NCBI GenBank assembly: GCA_013373445.1
Contig: JABXHV010000090.1
Location: 1 to 51,756, forward strand
Direction of reading: 5' to 3'
Source: Paracoccaceae bacterium
GTDB taxonomy: Bacteria > Pseudomonadota > Alphaproteobacteria > Rhizobiales > Stappiaceae
DNA length: 51,756 nucleotides
In this document: positions 1,784 through 15,956 of the stretch, piece after piece
How positions within the stretch are numbered: the first letter of the stretch is position 1
Layout of the letters: each line of letters begins with the position of its first letter
The notes under the pieces: generated by a model
Seen by the model: only the letters and a program-made list of their open reading frames with translations
Database searches by the model: none
What the model was told of the DNA's origin: nothing
Position numbers and translations under genes: made by a program

Positions 1784-2587
1784 TCAATCCGCATAAAGAC
1801 GCGTCAGATCAAAAGCGTGAATGTCCTTCAGGAGGTCTACAAAGCCCCTGGCCGCATGATCTACCGAAGCCTTGCCTTTGTCCGCGGTCGCGTTGGCGGC
1901 GTTGCCGAGCGCACCCTTTGCTCCCAGATCCTGCGCCTTCCAACCAAATTGTTGAGGGCCATGCCCACGCAGGTATTTGAATTCTTTCATGAAGTCCTGC
2001 TGCGCGGAGGTGAAATCTTCTGCATGTTCCATGCGTACGAGTTCGGGATGGAGGTGCAGCATGATGGATGTTTCAACATCACCGCCGTGGATCCCGTAAG
2101 TAAACTCGCGTTCCGAAAAAAGTCCTTCAGGCTGGCCAAACCGCGCCCAGGCGGTGCTGGTGACCAGCATTTGATGGCTGACGCGCAGCTCGCGCGCGAC
2201 GATGTCAATCATCGGTACGTTTCCGCCATGCGAATTGATAAGCACCAGTTTTCGGATGCCGGCACGTGCGACGCTGTGGCCAATTTCCAGCCAGGCTTTT
2301 GTCACCGTTTCCCAAGAGTGTGTCAGGGTGCCTGGCGAAGAAATATGCTCGTTGGATTTTCCGATTGCCTGCGTTGGCAGGAAGGTGACCGGCAGATCTT
2401 CGGGAAGAAGTTCAAGGACCCGTTTGACCTGGCCGTTGGCAATCGCCGTGTCAGTATAGACCGGGAGGTGCGGTCCATGTTGTTCGATGGCGGCGACTGG
2501 AAGGACGGCGATCCAATCGGAAACATTGGGGCTTTTGAAGTCGTTGGTGGTCATTTCATGCCAGTGGTGACGCGGCAAGGGGCTCAT
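1784..2587 (-). CDS. Creatininase-family protein (metal-dependent amidohydrolase)
   Basis: 267 residues, close to the usual length of about 250-270. The family signature EQHGPHLP at residues 35-42 followed by D46 (YTDT), a central NSHGGN loop and a later HGGDVETS segment match the binuclear-metal site of creatinine amidohydrolase relatives. Family members open lactam or cyclic amide rings such as creatinine, or work on riboflavin-pathway and peptide intermediates; the substrate cannot be told here. ATG at 2587 is preceded by AAGGA with about 7 nt spacing. The gene stands alone, divergent from the SprA-like gene across 160 bp. Cytoplasmic: no signal peptide or membrane segment. Confidence 0.85.
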   Translation of the reverse strand: MSPLPRHHWHEMTTNDFKSPNVSDWIAVLPVAAIEQHGPHLPVYTDTAIANGQVKRVLELLPEDLPVTFLPTQAIGKSNEHISSPGTLTHSWETVTKAWLEIGHSVARAGIRKLVLINSHGGNVPMIDIVARELRVSHQMLVTSTAWARFGQPEGLFSEREFTYGIHGGDVETSIMLHLHPELVRMEHAEDFTSAQQDFMKEFKYLRGHGPQQFGWKAQDLGAKGALGNAANATADKGKASVDHAARGFVDLLKDIHAFDLTRLYAD

Positions 2588-6991: not shown

Positions 6992-8335
6992 TCAGAGGCT
7001 TTCGAGAAAGCGTTTGGCAGCTTCCCCGTGCTCATAGCGCAATTCGCCAACGTCAATGGTTGTTGGAATCGCGTCAACCACAGTCCACTCCCCACCGATC
7101 ATGACCCGATCAGCAGAATGGGCACCGCACAACACCAAGGCGGCCAATGGGTCGCCTGCGCCCGAAAAGCGCAATTCATCCAAGGTATAGAAGGACATAT
7201 CGGCCATCATGCCAAGCTTTAGTGCCCCGATGTCCTCGCGTCCCAGGCAGCGTGCAGATCCTTCCGTTGCCCATCTGAAAGCATCGTAGTGCGTTACGCT
7301 TGCCGCATCATAGGTGAGTCGGTTGATCATGAGTGCGTGACGAACTCCTTCGATGAGGTTGGAGTTGTCATTGGATGCAGAACCGTCCACGCCGAGACCA
7401 ACTGGAGATCCTGCAGCCTCCAGCTCTTTGGTGCGGCACTGACCGGACGCAAGTACCATGTTTGACGTTGGACAATGACAAACGCCGACGCAGGCGTGGC
7501 CAAGCCGCTTGACTTCATCGTCGTTGAAATGAATGCCATGGGCAAGCCAGACACGCTCGTTCAGCCAGCCACATTCTTCGAGGTAGTCAACCGGACGGCA
7601 GTTGAAGTTCTCGACGCAGTACTTGTCTTCGTCAATGGTTTCGCCAAGGTGAGTGTGAAGGCGACAGTCATATTTCTCGGCAAGTGTCACACTCTCCTGC
7701 ATGAGGCGTTTGGTGACGGTAAACGGGGCACAGGGGGCAAGTGCGACCTGCAATTTGGAGCCCTTTGAGGTGTCGTGATACTTCGAGAGCACACGTTCAC
7801 AGTCCGCGAGAATGGTGTCTTCGTCCTGCACAACGGTGTCGGGCGGCAAGCCGCCGTCTTTCTGACTAAGGTTCATCGAACCACGTGTCAGCGTCATACG
7901 CAGTCCAACACGCTCGGCTTCTTCGGCCTGGATGTCCATTGCACTCTCCAGCCCTTCCGGGAACAGGTAGTGATGGTCGGAGGCTGCAGTACAGCCGGAC
8001 ATCATAAGCTCGGTCAAAGCGAGGCGGGTGCCAAGACGAAAGGTCTCTGGCGTGACGTTCCTTGCCCAAATCGGGTAAAGCGCATTCAACCAGGGAAAGA
8101 GCTCTTTGTTGATGGCATCCGGGTGCGCGCGTGTCAGTGTCTGAAAGAAGTGATGGTGTGTATTCACCAAACCGGGCGTAACCACGTGCCGTGACGCGTC
8201 GAATGTCTGGTCGACCGGAAGCATTGGCTCTTTGCCCTTCCCGATCAACTCGACGATTACGCCGTCTTCAATGACCAAACCCCGTTCTGCTCCCTCCGCT
8301 AGAATGGCGATTGGGTCCTTGATCCAGACACGCAT
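6992..8335 (-). CDS. 8-oxoguanine deaminase (amidohydrolase superfamily)
   Basis: 447 residues, as expected for PA0142-type 8-oxoguanine deaminases, which convert 8-oxoguanine to uric acid and ammonia in the cytoplasm. Visible metal-site motifs are HHH at residues 60-62 in VNTHHHFFQTLTR, LHTHLGE in the middle, HGIHFNDDE and GVDGSASND. CHCPTSNMVLASG is the usual loop of guanine-deaminase/AtzB-like enzymes. GAGGA lies about 8 nt before ATG 8335. It follows the Rid-like gene by 32 bp and precedes a YbfB-type carrier, pointing to a small purine-salvage or catabolic operon. The main alternative is another aminohydrolase (guanine or s-triazine) of the same clade. Confidence 0.85.
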   Translation of the reverse strand: MRVWIKDPIAILAEGAERGLVIEDGVIVELIGKGKEPMLPVDQTFDASRHVVTPGLVNTHHHFFQTLTRAHPDAINKELFPWLNALYPIWARNVTPETFRLGTRLALTELMMSGCTAASDHHYLFPEGLESAMDIQAEEAERVGLRMTLTRGSMNLSQKDGGLPPDTVVQDEDTILADCERVLSKYHDTSKGSKLQVALAPCAPFTVTKRLMQESVTLAEKYDCRLHTHLGETIDEDKYCVENFNCRPVDYLEECGWLNERVWLAHGIHFNDDEVKRLGHACVGVCHCPTSNMVLASGQCRTKELEAAGSPVGLGVDGSASNDNSNLIEGVRHALMINRLTYDAASVTHYDAFRWATEGSARCLGREDIGALKLGMMADMSFYTLDELRFSGAGDPLAALVLCGAHSADRVMIGGEWTVVDAIPTTIDVGELRYEHGEAAKRFLESL

Positions 8336-8367
8336 ATGTTCGTCCTCAACTTAAATTTTCAAAATTG

Positions 8368-8754
8368 TTATGGCTTCGCTGCGACGACTTCAACTTCAAC
8401 CACGAATTGTTCACGGGTAAACCCACCGACGATCATAAGTGTTGAGGCAGGTGGGGGAGAGGACGTGAATTCGTCGCGCGCCTTCATGTAACCTTGCATG
8501 TGTTCGCGGCCTGTTACATAGGCGTTGATGCGCACAATATCCGACAGGTTCATGCCTCCAGCGGCTAGAATGTGGCGTATGTTTTCGAAGCAAAGGCGCG
8601 TTTGATCCTCAACGCTTTCCGGGATCGTTTCGTCGGCGGCGATCCCAAGTTGGCCGGATGCGAAAATCAGGCGATGATCTGCAGGAACTTCAATGCCATG
8701 GCTGTATTTGGCGAAAGGTGCGCGAATTGCAGATGGAAGCAGGGGATTTGACAT
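8368..8754 (-). CDS. Rid (YjgF/YER057c) family protein without the RidA arginine
   Basis: 128 residues, normal for the trimeric Rid fold; LIFASGQLGI and VEVEVVA match the conserved beta strands. In RidA enzymes that hydrolyse 2-aminoacrylate, an Arg follows Pro-Ala near residue 105. Here the matching segment is PPASTLM, with Ser instead of Arg, so classic imine deaminase activity is unlikely. Such divergent Rids are common in heterocycle-degradation operons. It is first in the minus-strand run, with GAGGA 4 nt before ATG 8754. Likely role: a partner hydrolase for an unstable amino or imino intermediate, or a ring-product scavenger, in the pathway containing 8-oxoguanine deaminase. Confidence 0.85.
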   Translation of the reverse strand: MSNPLLPSAIRAPFAKYSHGIEVPADHRLIFASGQLGIAADETIPESVEDQTRLCFENIRHILAAGGMNLSDIVRINAYVTGREHMQGYMKARDEFTSSPPPASTLMIVGGFTREQFVVEVEVVAAKP

Positions 8755-9105
8755 TGGTTCCTCAATGGTGATTTGGCCAAGACGTTATCGATTGGTCATA
8801 TTGAGGGCAAGTCATGAAAGAACGCGTGTTTGGCAATTAACTAGGCATATTTCTGCCTGTTTTTTAATCCCTTACGTTGCGGTGCTAGATGCTCAGGTGC
8901 TTTGCTGGATGTCATTTCTGTCAGTGATGTTTCTATAAGAGTTTGATTTATATGTTGTTTATAAATGTCATATCGTTGTGGCATGCCGCTTGCTAAATAG
9001 ATAGGGCGTGAATGCCTGATCCGCTCCCAGGGCCTTTGTTGGCACAGCGGCAGAGCAAGCAGTCGGGTTTTGCCCGGCGTATAGCTATAGGAGAGTTGTG
9101 ACAGC
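8755..9105. promoter_or_regulatory. Divergent control region between rid and ABC importer operons
   Basis: 351 bp without a gene. AT-rich around 8920-8985, where both promoters probably sit; I could not place a confident -35/-10 pair. The 3' 65 bases form the structured leader described separately. Confidence 0.45.
9043..9100 (+). promoter_or_regulatory. Candidate NMT1-type (xanthine/urate) riboswitch overlapping the ribosome site
   Basis: Visible structure: an outer helix CACA (9043-9046) with TGTG (9097-9100) plus a G-T wobble (9047/9096), large internal loops, and an inner helix GTCGGG (9062-9067) with CCCGGC (9073-9078) around a TTTTG loop. The 3' internal loop holds the palindrome TATAGCTATA (9080-9089) and the Shine-Dalgarno GGAGAG (9090-9095), directly beside the outer helix. 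CTCC at 9024-9027 could pair with GGAG as an alternative. NMT1-motif RNAs are known to precede NMT1-domain ABC genes in proteobacteria and to bind xanthine or urate. The size, two-helix plan and downstream gene fit, but I have not matched the conserved nucleotides. Confidence 0.45.
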
Positions 9106-10110
9106 ATGCGCGCGCTTAAAAAAGTCGGTGTATCTATCGCTGCAGTATTTATCACTTCTTCCAGCGCCTACGCGCTCGATGAAGTCAAGTTTGGTACCAA
9201 CTGGCTCGCTCAGGCTGAGCACGGTGGTTACTATCAGGCCGTAGCTGACGGCACCTACGAAAAATACGGTCTCGATGTTGAAATCGTTCAGGGCGGTCCA
9301 CAGGCTGCCAACCGTGCTTTGCTTCTCGCTGGTAAAATTGATTTCTTCATGGCGGGAAACATGCTGCAGCCATTGAGCGCAGCTGCTGAAGACATTCCAC
9401 TCATCGAAGTTGCTGCGATCTTCCAAAAGGACCCTCAGGTTCTGATCGCGCACCCGGATGTTGGTCTCGAGAAATTTGAAGACTTGGCAAAACTGCCAAC
9501 AATCTTCATGGGCAAGAACGGTTTTTCTTCTTACTTTCAGTGGATGAAGTCTGCATACGAAGGTTTTGCTGATGAGCAGTACAAGCCTTATGCATTCAAC
9601 CCGGGCCCGTTCCTTGCTGACAAGCAATCCGCACAGCAGGGCTACATTACGTCTGAGCCATATGCGATCGAGCAAGAAGGTGGCATCAAGCCTAAGCTCT
9701 TTCTTCTCGCCGATGCTGGTTTTGAAACCTATTCAACGCTGATCGAAGGCCGTACGGACTTCGTTGCCGAGAACAAGGATCTGACACAGCGTTTTGTCGA
9801 TGCAACGATCATCGGTTGGTACAACTACCTCTATGGTGACAACGCTGCTGCGAATGAACTGATCAAAAAAGACAATCCAGAGATGTCTGATGAGCAGATC
9901 GCGTTCTCCATTGAAACAATGAAGTCTTTCGGCCTGGTTGAATCAGGTGATGCTCTCGATAAGGGCATTGGTTGTATGACCGATGAAAAGCAGGAAGAGT
10001 TTTACGCCAAGATGGTGAAAGCCGGCGTCGTTGAAGACGGTGTTGATATCACTGACGTCTACACGACCGAGTTTGTGTGTAAGGGCGTTGGCATGGAGCT
10101 GAAGAAGTAA
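9106..10110 (+). CDS. ABC transporter substrate-binding protein, NMT1/THI5-like
   Basis: 334 residues. Signal peptide about 1-23 (basic MRALKK, hydrophobic core, cleavage near SAYA|LDEV), so periplasmic. The mature part starts VKFGTNWLAQAEHGGYYQA, the standard opening of NMT1/SsuA-like binding proteins for pyrimidine-like or aromatic small molecules. AAN and FFMAGN segments line the usual ligand cleft. Two Cys near the C-terminus (CMTDEK, FVCKG) could form a disulfide. GGAGAG precedes ATG 9106 by 10 nt. Codon use is strongly biased (GCT, GGT, CGT), as expected for an abundant periplasmic protein. Downstream amidohydrolase and oxidase genes suggest the ligand is a purine- or pyrimidine-like heterocycle. 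Confidence 0.9.
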   Translation: MRALKKVGVSIAAVFITSSSAYALDEVKFGTNWLAQAEHGGYYQAVADGTYEKYGLDVEIVQGGPQAANRALLLAGKIDFFMAGNMLQPLSAAAEDIPLIEVAAIFQKDPQVLIAHPDVGLEKFEDLAKLPTIFMGKNGFSSYFQWMKSAYEGFADEQYKPYAFNPGPFLADKQSAQQGYITSEPYAIEQEGGIKPKLFLLADAGFETYSTLIEGRTDFVAENKDLTQRFVDATIIGWYNYLYGDNAAANELIKKDNPEMSDEQIAFSIETMKSFGLVESGDALDKGIGCMTDEKQEEFYAKMVKAGVVEDGVDITDVYTTEFVCKGVGMELKK

Positions 10111-10183: not shown

Positions 10184-10247
10184 TATCTCAATGGGGCGCA
10201 TTCGCGCGCGCCAAAGGCCGGCACCTGGCCTAAAACGGAGCCTCCTC

Positions 10248-11081
10248 GTGACCAACGGAACGGCTACGGCCGACACTTCTCCATCAGTAGCTGATGCTGC
10301 TTCCAAACCTCTCGTCAGCTTGAAGGGGATTTCGAAAACCTTCTCCAACGGGACGGTTGCCCTGCAAAATATGACGCTTGATATCCAGCAGGGTCAGTTC
10401 ATTTCCCTCCTTGGACCATCAGGTTGCGGAAAATCGACAGCTTTGCGGATCATCGCCGGTCTTGGCGATCCAACATCCGGCAACATTGAATGGCCAACCT
10501 CCGGCTATGATGCGACCGGCAAGGCGATGCCTGAAATCAGTTTTGTGTTCCAGGAACCGACTTTGATGCCCTGGGCAACTGTATTCGGCAACGTTTGGTT
10601 GCCGCTGCGCCTGAAAGGCATTTCAAAAAAAGACGCGCGTGAACGCGTTGAAGAGGCGCTCGACATGGTTGGGCTGCACAATTTTGCCAACGCATATCCA
10701 AGAGAGCTTTCCGGTGGAATGAAGATGCGCGTGTCGATTGCGCGTGCGCTGGTAACGCGCCCGAAGCTGCTCTTGATGGATGAGCCCTTTGCCGCACTCG
10801 ACGAAATTACGCGTCACAAGCTCAACGATGATTTGCTGCGGTTGTGGGAGACATTTGGTTGGACAGTCTTGTTCGTGACGCACTCGGTTTATGAGAGCGT
10901 CTATTTGTCGAACCGCATTGTGGTGATGGCTGCACGGCCAGGCCGGGTGGTGAATGATATGGCCGTTCCCGCTCCATATCCCCGCGACGACACTTTCCGC
11001 ACTTCGAGTGTTTACAACGATTTTTGCAGGGACGCGTCTTCGGCCCTCCATGCAGCAATGGGGGCGAATGATCATCTATGA
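10248..11081 (+). CDS. ABC transporter ATP-binding protein (SsuB/TauB/ThiZ type)
   Basis: 277 residues. Walker A GPSGCGKST at residues 56-64, Q-loop FVFQEPTLMPW, signature LSGGMKMRVSIARAL and Walker B LLLMDEPFAALDE are intact. TVLFVTHSVYESVYLSNRIVVM is the H-loop region typical of nitrate/sulfonate/taurine-type ATPases. The start is chosen at GTG 10248 because GGAG lies 10 nt upstream and the length then fits the family; frames open from 10152 would run through the intercistronic hairpin. It overlaps the permease gene by 4 nt (ATGA), so the two are translationally coupled. Energises uptake of the ligand bound by the upstream NMT1 protein. Confidence 0.9.
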   Translation: MTNGTATADTSPSVADAASKPLVSLKGISKTFSNGTVALQNMTLDIQQGQFISLLGPSGCGKSTALRIIAGLGDPTSGNIEWPTSGYDATGKAMPEISFVFQEPTLMPWATVFGNVWLPLRLKGISKKDARERVEEALDMVGLHNFANAYPRELSGGMKMRVSIARALVTRPKLLLMDEPFAALDEITRHKLNDDLLRLWETFGWTVLFVTHSVYESVYLSNRIVVMAARPGRVVNDMAVPAPYPRDDTFRTSSVYNDFCRDASSALHAAMGANDHL

Positions 11082-11953
11082 CCGATCCTGATGTGAACAA
11101 AATGACAGCTCCAACAAATCAGATCGACCCTTCTGAGGTTGACCTTCTTCCGCCGGTAAAGACCTTTCCGGTAGAGCGTGTTCTGCGCGTGGCTATCCCT
11201 ATTATAATGCTCGGCCTGCTGGTTTTGCTTTGGGCCTGGTACGTGGATGCTTACGATGTGCCGCATTATATTCTGCCGTCTCCAATGCGCGTTGCTACTG
11301 CGATGGTGACAGACTGGCCGATCCTGTCAGCTGCGTTGGTTATTACGCTTGAAATCACACTGACGGCTTTGGGGATTGCCTTGGTCGGCGGGTTGGGCCT
11401 GGCAATCCTGATGTCGCAATCGCGCTGGATTGAGCTGGCTCTTTATCCATATGCCGTGATCTTGCAGGTCACGCCGATTGTTGCAATTGCTCCCTTGATC
11501 CTGATCTATGCACCAACAACCTACTCGGCTTTGTTGATCTGTGCTTGGCTCGTGGCGTTCTTCCCAATTCTTTCGAACACGACGCAGGGTTTGAAGTCGA
11601 CTGATCATAATCTTCTGAACCTGTTTGAACTCTACGGCGCCTCCCGCTGGCAAACGCTCTATTATCTGAAACTCCCAAATGCTCTACCTTACTTCCTTGC
11701 TGGTTTGCGGATTGCTGGTGGTCTTGCACTTATTGCTGCAGTCGTTGCCGAGTTCGCTGCGGGTTCTGCTGGTGCGCAGTCCGGATTGGCTTTCCGGTTG
11801 CTGGAATCCCAGTTCCGATTGAACATCCCTCGCTTGTTCGCTGCCCTTATTCTGCTGTCGGCAACGGGCGTTGTGATCTTCTCTATTACCAGCCTTGTCT
11901 CGCACCTGTTTCTGCGCAAGTGGCACGAGAGTGCCCTGAAGCGGGAGAACTGA
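11078..11953 (+). CDS. ABC transporter permease (SsuC/TauC type)
   Basis: 291 residues. A polar N-terminus of about 35 residues is followed by about six hydrophobic helices. The EAA coupling loop is visible as ELYGASRWQTLYYLKLPNAL followed by LAGLRIAGGLALIAAV, matching the BPD_transp_1 family. It starts within the ATPase stop codon (4-nt overlap) and ends 3 nt before the amidohydrolase start, so the importer and the catabolic enzymes are one transcript. Inner-membrane channel of the importer. Confidence 0.9.
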   Translation: MTDPDVNKMTAPTNQIDPSEVDLLPPVKTFPVERVLRVAIPIIMLGLLVLLWAWYVDAYDVPHYILPSPMRVATAMVTDWPILSAALVITLEITLTALGIALVGGLGLAILMSQSRWIELALYPYAVILQVTPIVAIAPLILIYAPTTYSALLICAWLVAFFPILSNTTQGLKSTDHNLLNLFELYGASRWQTLYYLKLPNALPYFLAGLRIAGGLALIAAVVAEFAAGSAGAQSGLAFRLLESQFRLNIPRLFAALILLSATGVVIFSITSLVSHLFLRKWHESALKREN

Positions 11954-11956
11954 TCG

Positions 11957-13288
11957 ATGGCAATGGTTTTGCCTGAGACCTTGGGCGCCCGGTTCGTGTT
12001 GACGAATGCGAGTGTGCCGGGATGCCTGTTGCCTGCCGGCTTTCAGACTGGCGATACGGCGGACCTCCAAAAGGTGGATCTCGAGATTTCTGATGGGACG
12101 ATTGTAAAGATCTTTCCGTCCGGCTCGACTGCCTTTGGAGATGTTCCTTGTGTCGATCTTGATGACGGGATGGTGTTGCCAACGCTCGTTGATGTTCATA
12201 CGCATCTCGACAAGGGACATATCTGGTCACGTAAACCGAACCCGGATGGCACTTTTGCGGGTGCATTGAAAGCGGTCGGAGAAGATCGTGTGGCGAACTG
12301 GACGCCAGAAGACGTGCGCGCCCGCATGGAGTTCGGGCTGAAATGTGCCTATGTCTACGGTACATCGGCTCTGCGTACGCACATCGATAGCTTGCCCCCG
12401 CAAGATGAGGTGAGCTGGCCGATTTTGTGCGAGCTGCGTGAAGACTGGAAAGATCGGATCGAGCTTCAGGGTTCCTGCCTGTTCGGTATAGACCGGCTTG
12501 AAATCGAGCCGGAATATCTCAAGAGAATTGCTGACCGGGTCGATGAAAGTGGCGGTCTTCTTGGATCAGTGACCTACATGGTGCCAAACCTTGAAAAGCA
12601 TCTTGATGCCATTTTTCAGGCGGCTATGGACCGTGGTCTTGATCTCGACTTTCACGTTGATGAAACCAAGGACGTCGATGCAAAGACACTGCGGGCGATT
12701 GCCGAGGCTGCCATTAGGGCAGGCTTTGAGGGCAAGATCTTGTGTGGTCACTGTTGTTCGATTGCGCGCCAGGATTCTGACTATGTCGATGGGACACTGG
12801 ACCTCGTTGCACGCGCTGGAATTTCCGTTGTCTCCCTGCCGATGTGCAACATGTATCTGCAGGACCGGGAGCCCGGTCGCACGCCTCGTTGGCGTGGCGT
12901 AACCTTGCTCCATGAGATGCGGGCACGCGGCATTCCTGTCGCAGTTGCGTCTGACAACACACGGGATCCATTTTACGCCTATGGGGATCTCGACTTGCTT
13001 GAAGTCTATTCTCAGGCGACCCGGATTCTGCAGCTGGACCACCCAATCGGGGACTGGATTTCGACGGTGTCGACATCGCCTGCTCAAGTGATGGGGTCTG
13101 CAAGTGGACAGATTTCGCAAGGCGGTAACGCGGATCTTATCGTCTTGAAAGCACGAAACTGGAGCGAGCTTTTGTCGCGGCCGCGAGGTGCGCGTGACGT
13201 GTTACGAAAAGGCATCGTTGTAACAGAAGAACTCCCGGACTATCGCGAGCTTGATGGTCTTTTTAAAAATGGAAGCAGTCAGTCATGA
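11957..13288 (+). CDS. Cytosine-deaminase-like amidohydrolase
   Basis: 443 residues, near CodA length. Metal ligands appear in order: H81 and H83 in VDVHTHLDKGHIW, FHVDE in the centre (the His and Glu of the CodA HxxE pair), LCGHCCS, and VASDNTRDPFYAYGDLD, which carries the catalytic Asp and the substrate-shaping loop of cytosine/isoguanine deaminases. Reaction in the family: hydrolytic deamination of a ring amino group, releasing ammonia. Its place right after an NMT1-type importer suggests it acts on the imported ring compound, which may not be cytosine. It overlaps the following FAD oxidase gene by 4 nt. Confidence 0.85.
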   Translation: MAMVLPETLGARFVLTNASVPGCLLPAGFQTGDTADLQKVDLEISDGTIVKIFPSGSTAFGDVPCVDLDDGMVLPTLVDVHTHLDKGHIWSRKPNPDGTFAGALKAVGEDRVANWTPEDVRARMEFGLKCAYVYGTSALRTHIDSLPPQDEVSWPILCELREDWKDRIELQGSCLFGIDRLEIEPEYLKRIADRVDESGGLLGSVTYMVPNLEKHLDAIFQAAMDRGLDLDFHVDETKDVDAKTLRAIAEAAIRAGFEGKILCGHCCSIARQDSDYVDGTLDLVARAGISVVSLPMCNMYLQDREPGRTPRWRGVTLLHEMRARGIPVAVASDNTRDPFYAYGDLDLLEVYSQATRILQLDHPIGDWISTVSTSPAQVMGSASGQISQGGNADLIVLKARNWSELLSRPRGARDVLRKGIVVTEELPDYRELDGLFKNGSSQS

Positions 13289-14688
13289 GTATTGAGGCAT
13301 TGAAAAGTGGCCTTGAGGGTCTTGAGATAGAGGAAAACCCTCAGATTGTGCGTCAAAAGAGCCGTGACTTCTTTTGGTACTCCCCGGTTTTGAAGAAGCA
13401 GTTGGACGATGTCACTGCGGATCTGATCGTAACGCCGAAAAGTGAAGCCGATGTCATTCAGACGATCAAGGCTTGCTATGAGAACGATATTCCGCTGACC
13501 GTTCGTGGCACCGGTACGGGCAACTACGGGCAGGCTATGCCGTTGTCTGGTGGTGTCGTTTTGAACATGGCCGGAATGAGCAAGATTGTGAAGATCGGCC
13601 AAGGCGTTGTTGTGGCCGAGGCCGGTGCGATTATTGCGAACATCGACGCGGCTTGCCGTGAGGAGTCTTCGCAAGAGCTGCGCCTGCATCCTTCCACTTA
13701 CAAGACGGCAACAATCGGAGGTTTCATCGCCGGTGGGTCCGGCGGCGTCGGCTCCATCAACTTCGGTGGCTTGCGTGATCTGGGTAACGTCATTCGTCTG
13801 CGGGTATTGACTATGGAAGCAGAACCGCGCGTGCTCGATATGACAGGCGAAGACTTGCAAAAAGTCATGCATGCATATGGCACCAACGGGATCATTACTG
13901 AAGTTGAGATGCCTTTGACCGCGGCCTATGATTGGGTCGATGTGATGGTGGCGTTTGATGACTTCATGGACGGTGTTCGTTTTGCCGATGCGCTAGGCAA
14001 TCAGGATGGTCTGTTGTGTAAGGAAATTGCGCCAATTGCAGCGCCTGTTCCTCACGACTACTTCCTGCGTCACCAGCAGTTCCTGACACCGGAAAAGTCC
14101 GTGGTGCTCTGTATGGTGGCGCCTTTTGCAATGAATGCCTTTGATGCATTTGCCTGCCGTCAAAAGGGTGCTGAAATTGTCTATCGGTCTGATCAAGCCG
14201 ATGAAGACGTGAAAAAACGGCTTCCTCCAACTTATGAGCTGGCCTGGAACCACACGACGCTTCGCGGTTTGCGGGTCGATCCGACGGTGACCTATCTGCA
14301 GGTTCTCTACCCGTTCCCGAACCAGATCGAAAAGGTTCAGACGATGTATGAGCTCCTCGGAGATGAGGTTGTTCCACATCTTGAATATGTGCGCTTTGAC
14401 GGCAAAGTGACCTGTTTCGGCCTGCCGATCGTTCGGTACTCATCCGAAGAGCGTCTTAACGAGATTATCAAGCTGCATGAAGACAACGGGTGTCCGATCT
14501 TCAATCCGCACCGCTATACGCTCGAAGAGGGGGGTATGAAACAAACAGATGCCGTGCAGTTGGCGTTCAAGAAAGAGGCCGATCCCAAGGGGCTTTTGAA
14601 CCCCGGCAAAATGATTGCCTGGGAAGATCCGTCATACGATTATTCATCTGATCAGGTCTTCCTGTTCCCGGGGCTTCAGCGGGACTGA
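13285..14688 (+). CDS. FAD-linked oxidase (GlcD/VAO-type)
   Basis: 467 residues. The FAD-binding PCMH domain spans about residues 45-220: TPKSEADVIQTIKACYENDIPLTVRGTG, then TIGGFIAGGSGGVGS and GTNGIITEVEMPL. A C-terminal FAD-oxidase cap follows and ends HRYTLEEGGM...DPKGLLNPGKM, the signature of glycolate/D-lactate dehydrogenase-like enzymes. Such enzymes oxidise 2-hydroxyacids or C-N/C-O bonds with FAD. Coupled by a 4-nt overlap to the deaminase-like gene, it probably acts on the deaminated or ring-opened product. No cysteine cluster or signal peptide; cytoplasmic or membrane-peripheral. Exact substrate unknown. Confidence 0.85.
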   Translation: MSIEALKSGLEGLEIEENPQIVRQKSRDFFWYSPVLKKQLDDVTADLIVTPKSEADVIQTIKACYENDIPLTVRGTGTGNYGQAMPLSGGVVLNMAGMSKIVKIGQGVVVAEAGAIIANIDAACREESSQELRLHPSTYKTATIGGFIAGGSGGVGSINFGGLRDLGNVIRLRVLTMEAEPRVLDMTGEDLQKVMHAYGTNGIITEVEMPLTAAYDWVDVMVAFDDFMDGVRFADALGNQDGLLCKEIAPIAAPVPHDYFLRHQQFLTPEKSVVLCMVAPFAMNAFDAFACRQKGAEIVYRSDQADEDVKKRLPPTYELAWNHTTLRGLRVDPTVTYLQVLYPFPNQIEKVQTMYELLGDEVVPHLEYVRFDGKVTCFGLPIVRYSSEERLNEIIKLHEDNGCPIFNPHRYTLEEGGMKQTDAVQLAFKKEADPKGLLNPGKMIAWEDPSYDYSSDQVFLFPGLQRD

Positions 14689-14713
14689 TCTGAGATTCCG
14701 AAGTTATGCGTCA

Positions 14714-14748
14714 GGACGGCCGCCCGGCTTGTTGAAAGCGGGCCGTCC
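14714..14748 (+). repeat. Intercistronic hairpin before the reductase pair
   Basis: GGACGGCC (14714-14721) pairs with GGCCGTCC (14741-14748), with a loop that may fold further. No immediate T run follows. Possible processing or attenuation point between the FAD oxidase and the two reductases. Confidence 0.45.
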
Positions 14749-14787
14749 CCTCCGCATGTCCGCTTTTTGAAACCGTTGGAGCAAGAT

Positions 14788-15369
14788 ATGCGCGTATTGG
14801 TCCTTTTCTCCCATCCGGTGGAGAGCAGTTTTGGTGCCGGCTTGCACGCTCAGGTCCTCGCATCGTTGAGGAAGGCGGGGCATGAGGTCGATAACTGCGA
14901 TCTTTATGCTGAAGACTTTGATCCGCGGCTGACGCGTGAAGAACGGCTTGGCTACCACGATCTTGATACCAACCAGGGCTCTGTTCAGGGATACGTCGAC
15001 CGATTGCAAAAAGCAGACGCATTGGTGATTGTGACGCCTGTCTGGAACTATGGACATCCAGCTATTCTCAAAGGCTTTTTTGACCGTGTGTTTTTGCCAG
15101 GTGTGTCTTTCAAGATGAAAGACGGCAAGGTTGCTCCGTGCTTGCACAACATCCGTAAGCTGACGGTCGTGACGACGTATGGCGGTACCCGTCAGCGGGC
15201 GTTTCTTGTTGGAGACCCGCCACGCAAAATTGCCAAACGTGTTTTGCGAGCCATCATCTGGCCATTCGCGCCGATCAAGTATCTGGCGCTTTATGATCTC
15301 AACAGACGAACTGACAGCGAGCGGGCAGGATTTCTCGCCAAGGTCGCTGATGAAATGGAAAAATTCTAA
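14788..15369 (+). CDS. Flavodoxin-fold NAD(P)H-dependent oxidoreductase, copy 1
   Basis: 193 residues, Flavodoxin_2 fold (NQO1/MdaB/KefF relatives). The N-terminal strand MRVLVLFSHPVESSFGA forms the flavin phosphate loop. VTPVWNYGHPAILKGFFDRVFLPG is the conserved FMN/FAD ring-binding segment and VVTTYGG the third flavin loop. These enzymes make two-electron reductions of quinones, azo or nitro compounds, or ring systems using NAD(P)H. ATG 14788 has GGAG 6 nt upstream, favouring it over the TTG at 14767. Its stop overlaps the start of a paralogue by one base, so the pair is co-translated and may form a heterodimer. Confidence 0.85.
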   Translation: MRVLVLFSHPVESSFGAGLHAQVLASLRKAGHEVDNCDLYAEDFDPRLTREERLGYHDLDTNQGSVQGYVDRLQKADALVIVTPVWNYGHPAILKGFFDRVFLPGVSFKMKDGKVAPCLHNIRKLTVVTTYGGTRQRAFLVGDPPRKIAKRVLRAIIWPFAPIKYLALYDLNRRTDSERAGFLAKVADEMEKF

Positions 15370-15956
15370 TGCGCGCGCTGGTCGTATATAGCCATCCTTG
15401 CTCTGAAAGCTACAACGCTGCGGTTCTGACAAAAGTAACTGAAACCCTGAGCGGATCTGGTCATGAGGTTCGTGTGCGGGATCTCTATCGCGATGGGTTT
15501 AACCCGGTCATGTCTGCCGAAGAACGCAGGAAATATCATGACAGGGGGATCAACGAAGAGCCGGTACGTGAGTATCTGGATGATCTTCTGTGGTGTGAGA
15601 TGCTGGTGTTTGTCTATCCGACGTGGTGGTTCGGCCTTCCTGCTATGCTGAAGGGGTGGTTCGATCGGGTCTGGATACCTTATGTCACCTTCGATATTCC
15701 CGGAGATGACGGTGGCATGGGTCCGCGCATGCAGCACGTAAAGAAAATCGCCGTCGTCACGACTTGCGGGGCGTCTTGGATTGTCTCAAAGTTTGTTGGC
15801 GAACCTGGTCGCAAGACGATCTTGCGTGGCATGCGTGCACTTGTCTCTCGCAGGTGCAAGACCCTTTATCTGGCGCACTATAAAATGGATACATCAACGC
15901 CTGAGAGCCGTGAGGCTTATCTGGGCAAGATCCAGTCCCGGCTGGCAAATTTCTAA
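15369..15956 (+). CDS. Flavodoxin-fold NAD(P)H-dependent oxidoreductase, copy 2
   Basis: 195 residues, clearly a paralogue of the preceding gene. It has the same MRALVVYSHPCSESYNAAVL phosphate loop, a YPTWWFGLPAMLKGWFDRVWIP flavin segment, and VVTTCGASWI. The aromatic YPTWWFG (against TPVWNYG in copy 1) suggests a different or complementary pocket. The start codon overlaps the previous stop (TAATG). Together with the upstream FAD oxidase it suggests a pathway with both oxidative and reductive steps, or a flavin/quinone electron partner for the oxidase. Confidence 0.85.
   Translation: MRALVVYSHPCSESYNAAVLTKVTETLSGSGHEVRVRDLYRDGFNPVMSAEERRKYHDRGINEEPVREYLDDLLWCEMLVFVYPTWWFGLPAMLKGWFDRVWIPYVTFDIPGDDGGMGPRMQHVKKIAVVTTCGASWIVSKFVGEPGRKTILRGMRALVSRRCKTLYLAHYKMDTSTPESREAYLGKIQSRLANF

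Follow-up and report, generated by a model that had tools for sequence, protein, structure and literature searches.

Guanine-class riboswitch variants are built on a three-way junction architecture. These variants (for xanthine, guanine and 2'-deoxyguanosine; PMC9295807) share with the leader considered here the prospect of small purine-type ligands and of purine gene control. A second point of comparison is the NMT1 motif, or xanthine-I riboswitch (RF03054). NMT1 RNAs (PMC7373994, PMC8266621) resemble our leader in forming a short rod near the ribosome site (P1, junction, P2a, small bulge, P2b), in preceding genes for purine-type amidohydrolases and for binding proteins of the NMT1/THI5-like kind, and in acting, as ours is predicted to act, on translation. 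PMC7373994 reports them to be OFF switches.

We describe here the leader of an importer operon in a 51,756-nt stretch of DNA (the window) whose host genome measures 3.64 Mb. We read 9005-9105 as a 5'-leader regulatory RNA of a class outside Rfam; comparative and folding evidence gives slightly better than even odds that it is, as the likeliest form of that reading, a small metabolite-sensing riboswitch with two exclusive folds and an ON response.

The importer operon

The operon lies on the forward strand. Its first gene encodes an NMT1/THI5-like substrate-binding protein (SBP; 9106..10110; PF09084, 80 bits), followed by an ABC ATPase and permease (10239..11953; PF00005, PF00528), a cytosine-deaminase-like amidohydrolase of the PRK07583 type (11957..13288; NF005759, 628.3 bits against a cut-off of 403), and a FAD-linked oxidase with two flavodoxin-fold oxidoreductases (13285..15956; PF01565, PF02525). 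A divergent RidA-like gene and an 8-oxoguanine deaminase gene occupy the reverse strand (6992..8754; PF01042; PRK08203, above cut-off) and provide context outside this leader. The first-pass annotation of this DNA had named both the NMT1-like binding protein, in an import and catabolism operon, and the divergent 8-oxoguanine deaminase, and the profile matches bear out both assignments. The 10 neighbouring proteins that we scanned comprise enzymes, transport proteins and one MarR-type DNA-binding regulator. SBP orthologues (E<=1e-60) occur in 39 of 61 genomes, the host genome counted.

A creatininase-family gene also lies near the operon (1784-2587, reverse strand; PF02633). Homologues are present within five related loci (L126, L128, L129, L130 and L131) and were not found in L125 or L127. 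This neighbour suggests that the pathway may include a step on a cyclic amide.

A conserved element in the leader

Twenty of 30 fetched SBP loci have in common a CCGCUCNNAGGGC-loop-GCACAGCGGCAGNGC block. In the window, this block and the UGCCUG-like letters 5' of it form an element of about 47 nt at 9011..9057 on the forward strand, delimited by a covariance model match, by alignment and by the fold of the isolated element. The predicted fold has an outer helix P1 (9013-9018/9051-9057, with A9054 bulged), a second helix P2 (9021-9025/9046-9050), an internal loop (9026-9031/9044-9045) and an inner helix P3 (9032-9034/9041-9043). The region drawn previously, 9020-9105, overlaps this element; the conserved part is about 9005-9057, and a start at 9020 removes the 5' half of the outer helix. 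The earlier placement of a structured RNA next to the importer operon's ribosome site nonetheless holds, in that a conserved element, in a leader under RNA-level selection, adjoins that site. Being conserved, and lying in the 5' leader of an operon whose genes are metabolically coherent, the element has the setting expected of a riboswitch.

Thirteen leaders, the window's own among them, were used to build a covariance model, R1. It matches the window at 9011-9060 (70.7 bits, E 2.1e-19), a score obtained on a member of its own training set. Applied to the window's family (Roseibium/Labrenzia, Pannonibacter), R1 finds a single strong copy in each of 29 of 87 genomes (E 4.6e-21 to 4.2e-16). All 29 copies have the SBP orthologue 3' of the element, and the distance from the first base of the element to the start codon is 78-131 nt. 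A match in a 30th reported genome (G886, locus L102; E 4.7e-4) was dropped as likely chance because that locus has no SBP homologue.

Beyond the family, R1 yielded no further convincing copy in 397 genomes of the order, 289 of the class and 398 of the phylum, samples that overlap, include some family members and were searched with strict filters that lose weak matches. We fetched 37 weak R1 matches (L102 and L148 included): no SBP homologue is present at any of these loci, and all but L052 and L102, 35 in total, overlap stop-free frames of at least 150 aa. In GC-rich DNA such frames suggest coding without proving it. An exact-pattern scan of one genome per species (84,980 species) returned 22 contigs, 20 of which carry the names Roseibium, Labrenzia or Pannonibacter. 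Searches with R1 of 17 sources, 10 element-less orthologue loci among them, returned nothing, and a plasmid search for the element gave no match. The leader element is strongly conserved and has so far been found in one family only (Roseibium/Labrenzia and Pannonibacter), a narrow distribution that restricts what statistics can show.

The 29 leaders fall into three classes. Class A, the window's type (9 leaders), has a variable linker hairpin, P4, after the element. Class B (14 leaders) has a conserved stretch there, and class C (6 leaders, from Pannonibacter and the genus g443) a short GCUUU/AAAGC hairpin. The element's mean identity is 0.85 between A and B, 0.94 between A and C, and 0.82 between B and C, and flank identity averages 0.39-0.58 against 0.44 (sd 0.04) for shuffled DNA. 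The 48-nt flanks of A and B agree at 43% and 49%, as against 85% for the element and 44% (sd 4) for shuffled DNA. The sole flank clearly above shuffles is the upstream one between A and C (0.58), which holds a common promoter motif. For comparison, at four-fold codon sites of the SBP gene the window agrees with three class B genes at 26/92, 32/93 and 30/94 positions (28-34%).

Selection on the leader as RNA

The window sequence contains an open frame over the element, with an ATG at 9012, 29 codons and a stop at 9099-9101, which raises the idea that a short upstream ORF (leader peptide) is what has been conserved. The block CCGCTC..GCAGNGC measures 36 nt in 16 of the 29 leaders, 34 nt in 7, 37 nt in 5 and 35 nt in 1; lengths of 34, 35, 36 and 37 nt are no codon steps. 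In 13 of the 29 relatives the element departs from the window's length by -2, -1 or +1 nt, and these differences break the frame; third positions are also as invariant as the others. We therefore rejected the leader peptide, which we regard as highly improbable.

How far the RNA fold itself is under selection can be read from substitutions in the paired positions of 17 distinct alignment rows. All five pairs of P2 are invariant, as are two of the six pairs of P1, whose other four pairs are each broken in 1-5 rows; neither helix has a compensatory change. The hairpin loop of the element varies in length, and one closing pair in P3, C24-G32, becomes U-A in 3 rows. Pairs changed on both sides are no more frequent than in shuffles (290/500). 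When 10 elements were folded in isolation, P1 and P2 formed in most of them (P3 differs in L087, and P1 in L101 and L042); the stability of these isolated elements is not unusual (z -0.17 to -1.98).

An invariant P2 that does not covary fits sequence-specific recognition, and a regulatory protein might recognize the leader element and act on the RNA there, in which case the element would not be a metabolite aptamer. Conservation, a single strong copy per genome and a small stem-loop fit a protein site equally well. Against it, no RNA-binding regulator is found among the 10 neighbouring proteins scanned, and we judge a protein site rather unlikely.

Selection on RNA is also seen in the linker after the element. 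In the window, P4 is a 7-bp hairpin at 9062..9078 on the forward strand (9062-9068/9072-9078), and its 26-nt segment folds with z -3.1, a value reached by 1 of 500 single-base shuffles. Corresponding segments beat at least 488 of 500 shuffles in 7 of the 9 class A leaders, L091 and L092 being the exceptions. The leaders of two relatives, L083 and L084, differ at 2 positions over 113 nt, and these are both partners of one P4 pair (G-C versus A-U), paired in both predicted hairpins. The compensatory change demonstrates, at the level of sequence comparison, that P4 is kept as RNA. Because P1 and P2 lack covariation while P4 changes in a compensatory manner, the demonstration of RNA-level selection, again comparative, applies to the leader; the P1-P2 fold is a prediction to which conservation is added.

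An inner hairpin had been part of the earlier proposal, and P4, with its low z score and its compensatory change between L083 and L084, shows that hairpin to be real. The proposal also called for covariation in its two helices, and the inner hairpin shows a compensatory change. The overall fold drawn for 9020-9105 fares worse. As a whole the region has z -0.04, with 84 of 200 dinucleotide shuffles folding as well, and its predicted structure shifts with the ends chosen.

The linker of class B (columns 36-83 of alignment A3) is itself conserved. In the consensus fold it pairs with the element's 3' strand through 16 pairs, with 99.4% of cells paired, in a consensus of 12 rows (11 distinct) where 12 of the 16 pairs never vary. 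The folding model makes it possible that this linker is an anti-element arm.

Predicted promoter and transcription start

The sequence TGGCATG-N4-TTGCT (8979..8994, forward strand), identified by pattern match, is a predicted sigma54-type -24/-12 promoter. The general form TGGCAYR-N4-TTGCW ends 16-17 nt 5' of the element in 15 of the 29 leaders (9/9 class A and 6/6 class C) and stands before the element in 0/14 leaders of class B, so the element is kept in 14 leaders that have no sigma54 motif. We presume a -12 GC spacing rule in placing the predicted 5' end of the mRNA, GGCGUG, at 9005..9010 on the forward strand, about 12 nt 3' of the -12 GC. GCGUG or GCAUG is found at the predicted 5' end in 14 of 14 alignment rows of classes A and C.

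A predicted start so near the element invites the thought that it is a DNA operator just 3' of the transcription start, its palindromes serving as two transcription-factor half-sites. The inverted repeats CCGCT...AGCGG and GCC...GGC near the predicted +1, and the invariance of the P2 half-sites, are consistent with such a site. Half-site spacing, however, varies by up to 3 bp, with four lengths among the 29 leaders, so that the half-sites would be rotated on the helix, and the element persists though the promoter type changes. The adjoining P4 changes compensatorily, although this bears on the leader and not on the element as such. We consider a DNA operator unlikely, and continue with the element as part of a regulatory RNA.

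Two exceptional configurations occur among the relatives. G032 (L132, C1:190600-192600) retains the sigma54 motif and, on the divergent side, the 8-oxoguanine deaminase gene, and the element is missing; to judge by its sequence, this locus is a natural deletion available for comparison. In L083 and L084 (genomes G009 and G027) the leader is of class A, carrying both the sigma54 motif and the element, and the SBP gene that follows it is class-B-like. The SBP of L083 is 83-85% identical to those of class B and 60% identical to the window's, and it seems from these identities that the SBP was swapped beneath the same leader in this lineage.

A predicted ON switch

For the leader as a whole, folding of 23 leaders and consensus folds point to an alternative to the P1-P2-P3 structure, in which the Shine-Dalgarno sequence AGGAG (9089..9093, forward strand) pairs with the element's 5' strand, and the predicted 5' end, 9005-9010, pairs with the start-codon region. 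Run separately on classes A/C and on class B, RNAalifold in each case prefers a structure where the 5' strand of the element is paired to the ribosome site; in the A/C consensus, the pairing extends to the start codon. This pairing is incompatible with P1 and P2.

On this basis we propose that the element has two mutually exclusive folds. In the first, the 5' strand GCGUG..AUUG..CUGA.CCGCUCC would pair with the Shine-Dalgarno region and block translation, with the start codon also paired in classes A and C. In the second, presumed to be the ligand-bound form, the element would close as P1-P2-P3 and free the ribosome site. Such an element would act as an ON switch, and in classes A and C, where transcription would depend on sigma54, induction by the substrate would come on top. 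Sigma54 is linked to nitrogen need. The model would suit an inducible nitrogen-scavenging importer, with sigma54 reporting nitrogen need and the RNA reporting the presence of substrate.

Several controls bear on this model. Leader folding and duplex tests covered 23 of the 29 leaders, near-duplicates being left out, and background-control folding covered 13 of those 23. When P1-P2-P3 is enforced, mean accessibility from the Shine-Dalgarno sequence to the AUG rises in all but one of the 23 leaders when 9 or 18 coding bases are included and in all but two when 30 are, and the Shine-Dalgarno bases alone become more accessible in 18 of 23 (18 coding bases). The enforced element also raises access when placed before unrelated start regions, by a mean of +0.02 to +0.08. 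Against this background of 400, nine of the 13 leaders place their native gain at rank 0-50, and L083, L087, L098 and L101 at rank 102-250. The predicted gain is generic in part.

The pairing predicted to occlude the ribosome site is modest. Of 985 background start regions, 77-211 equal it as a bare duplex in classes A and C, and 207-555 do so in class B (L080 left out), and duplex energy by itself was set aside as not significant against this background. When the pairing is scored within the leader, its rank among 400 is 6-69 for eight of the nine class A/C leaders and 213 for the ninth, L098; four class B leaders give 22, 48, 110 and 160. The mean cost of the element fold, with 30 coding bases, is 2.4 kcal/mol in class A, 2.3 in class C and 9.6 in class B, where by this calculation it is high for a weak ligand. 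Taken together, the alternative-fold controls are no more than moderately in favour of a switch in these folding models; the ON-switch model is reasoned from the data and not demonstrated by them.

Folding of the free leader predicts a ribosome site that is largely paired. Occlusion of this kind would also suit a leader targeted in trans by a small RNA, or one that serves as an RNA thermometer, melting close to the ribosome site. A thermometer, by our reasoning, would not require 47 nearly invariant nucleotides that can adopt a second, exclusive fold, and we hold this pair of explanations to be very unlikely. The ligand-dependent ON switch is the reading that we carry forward.

Separation from the NMT1 riboswitches

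The first-pass annotation had assigned the leader to the NMT1 class, with xanthine or urate as the ligand. The kind of downstream gene is indeed the same, and a PRK07583 deaminase also adjoins a genuine xanthine-riboswitch operon, in G165. Sequence models separate the two RNAs. No Rfam 15 family, the NMT1 model included, matches at gathering anywhere in the window or at E<=10 in 8750-9200, and RF03054 has no match in the host genome at E<=0.001. Rfam on the relative L006 gives four matches, all far below gathering, the best being RF02497 (E 2, 13.3 bits, gathering 60).

RF03054 does occur elsewhere: among 200 phylum genomes it is found in 4, among the 87 of the family in 12, and 14 control genomes gave no match. 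Seven genuine xanthine riboswitches served to build a model of that class, which on 8760-9120 with filters off reaches at most 1.4 bits, its best spot (8798-8818) lying outside the element; the same model scores 41-47 bits on 5 genuine members outside its build. The reverse search, with R1 on 11 NMT1 loci and L132, returned nothing. Both RNAs coexist at different loci in 8 genomes (G011, G012, G018, G019, G021, G034, G036 and G506). We fetched 10 RF03054 loci, 6 of them from those 8 genomes, and all 10 adjoin a dioxygenase or SBP gene resembling the G165 xanthine locus. Assignment of the leader to the NMT1 class was rejected on these grounds and is extremely improbable.

A related idea, that the present operon is the xanthine-riboswitch operon of other families, was rejected in G048, where the SBP orthologue (C1) and the xanthine riboswitches (C6) lie on separate contigs. 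The G165 locus (L125) itself holds two genuine xanthine riboswitches, at 7977-8025 and 10844-10889, which precede an SBP/ABC set and a 2OG-Fe dioxygenase gene; the PRK07583 deaminase lies downstream.

Candidate ligands

The ligand is probably the imported heterocycle or its product, and may be aminopyrimidine-like or an oxidised purine. The nearest solved relatives of the SBP, all weak, are 4nmy (1.2e-9), 3ix1 (9.4e-5) and THI5 (0.003), of which 3ix1 is a formyl-aminopyrimidine binding protein. The operon deaminase resembles cytosine deaminases, and cytosine-deaminase-type enzymes can act on isoguanine. With a PRK07583 enzyme also beside the xanthine-riboswitch operon of G165, the ligand may be a purine. 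Urate had been suggested earlier, with reference to the divergent 8-oxoguanine deaminase. That gene is present here, and a match at E<=1e-120 occurs in all 15 class A/C genomes; at the same threshold it is absent from all 14 class B genomes, which weakens the case for urate. With 14 of 29 element-bearing genomes having no close 8-oxoguanine deaminase, urate and 8-oxoguanine are no common denominator.

A more specific proposal can be made, to which we give somewhat less than an even chance: the leader would represent a new riboswitch class with an aptamer of about 47 nt, unrelated to the xanthine riboswitch, sensing whatever substrate the NMT1-like importer takes up (isoguanine or some other oxidised purine, or else an aminopyrimidine), turning translation on in combination with a sigma54 promoter, and having evolved apart from the xanthine riboswitch that some of these genomes also carry. 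If this holds, it adds an uncatalogued class of leader RNA, and the ligand would name the substrate of the import and deamination operon. Two unrelated RNAs before related importers in one genome, as in G018, would then amount to a natural test of the way RNA sensors specialise on related heterocycles. The construct is short, which makes the idea easily tested.

Relation to known systems

In the searchable literature we found no published report of such a leader RNA. Labrenzia, Roseibium, Pannonibacter, Stappia and NMT1 go unmentioned in the main texts of PMC11109978 and PMC8632094. By sequence and predicted structure, the element looks like a previously uncatalogued riboswitch-like leader RNA.

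The element and the NMT1 RNA are alike in outline only. Genuine members carry the core GAGUAGAAGC...AUUGCUC (read from L031-L037), which is absent here, where the core is CCGCUCNNAGGGC...GCACAGCGGCAG. NMT1 RNAs are OFF switches according to PMC7373994, whereas this element is predicted to be ON. The guanine-class variants are likewise unlike the element, 8750-9200 having no Rfam family match at E<=10. Among the systems compared, the lineage-restricted orphan riboswitch candidates of surveys such as PMC11109978 and PMC8632094 resemble the element in being conserved, structured leader RNAs associated with one gene type; set against those candidates, the element is confined to one family and to one locus per genome.
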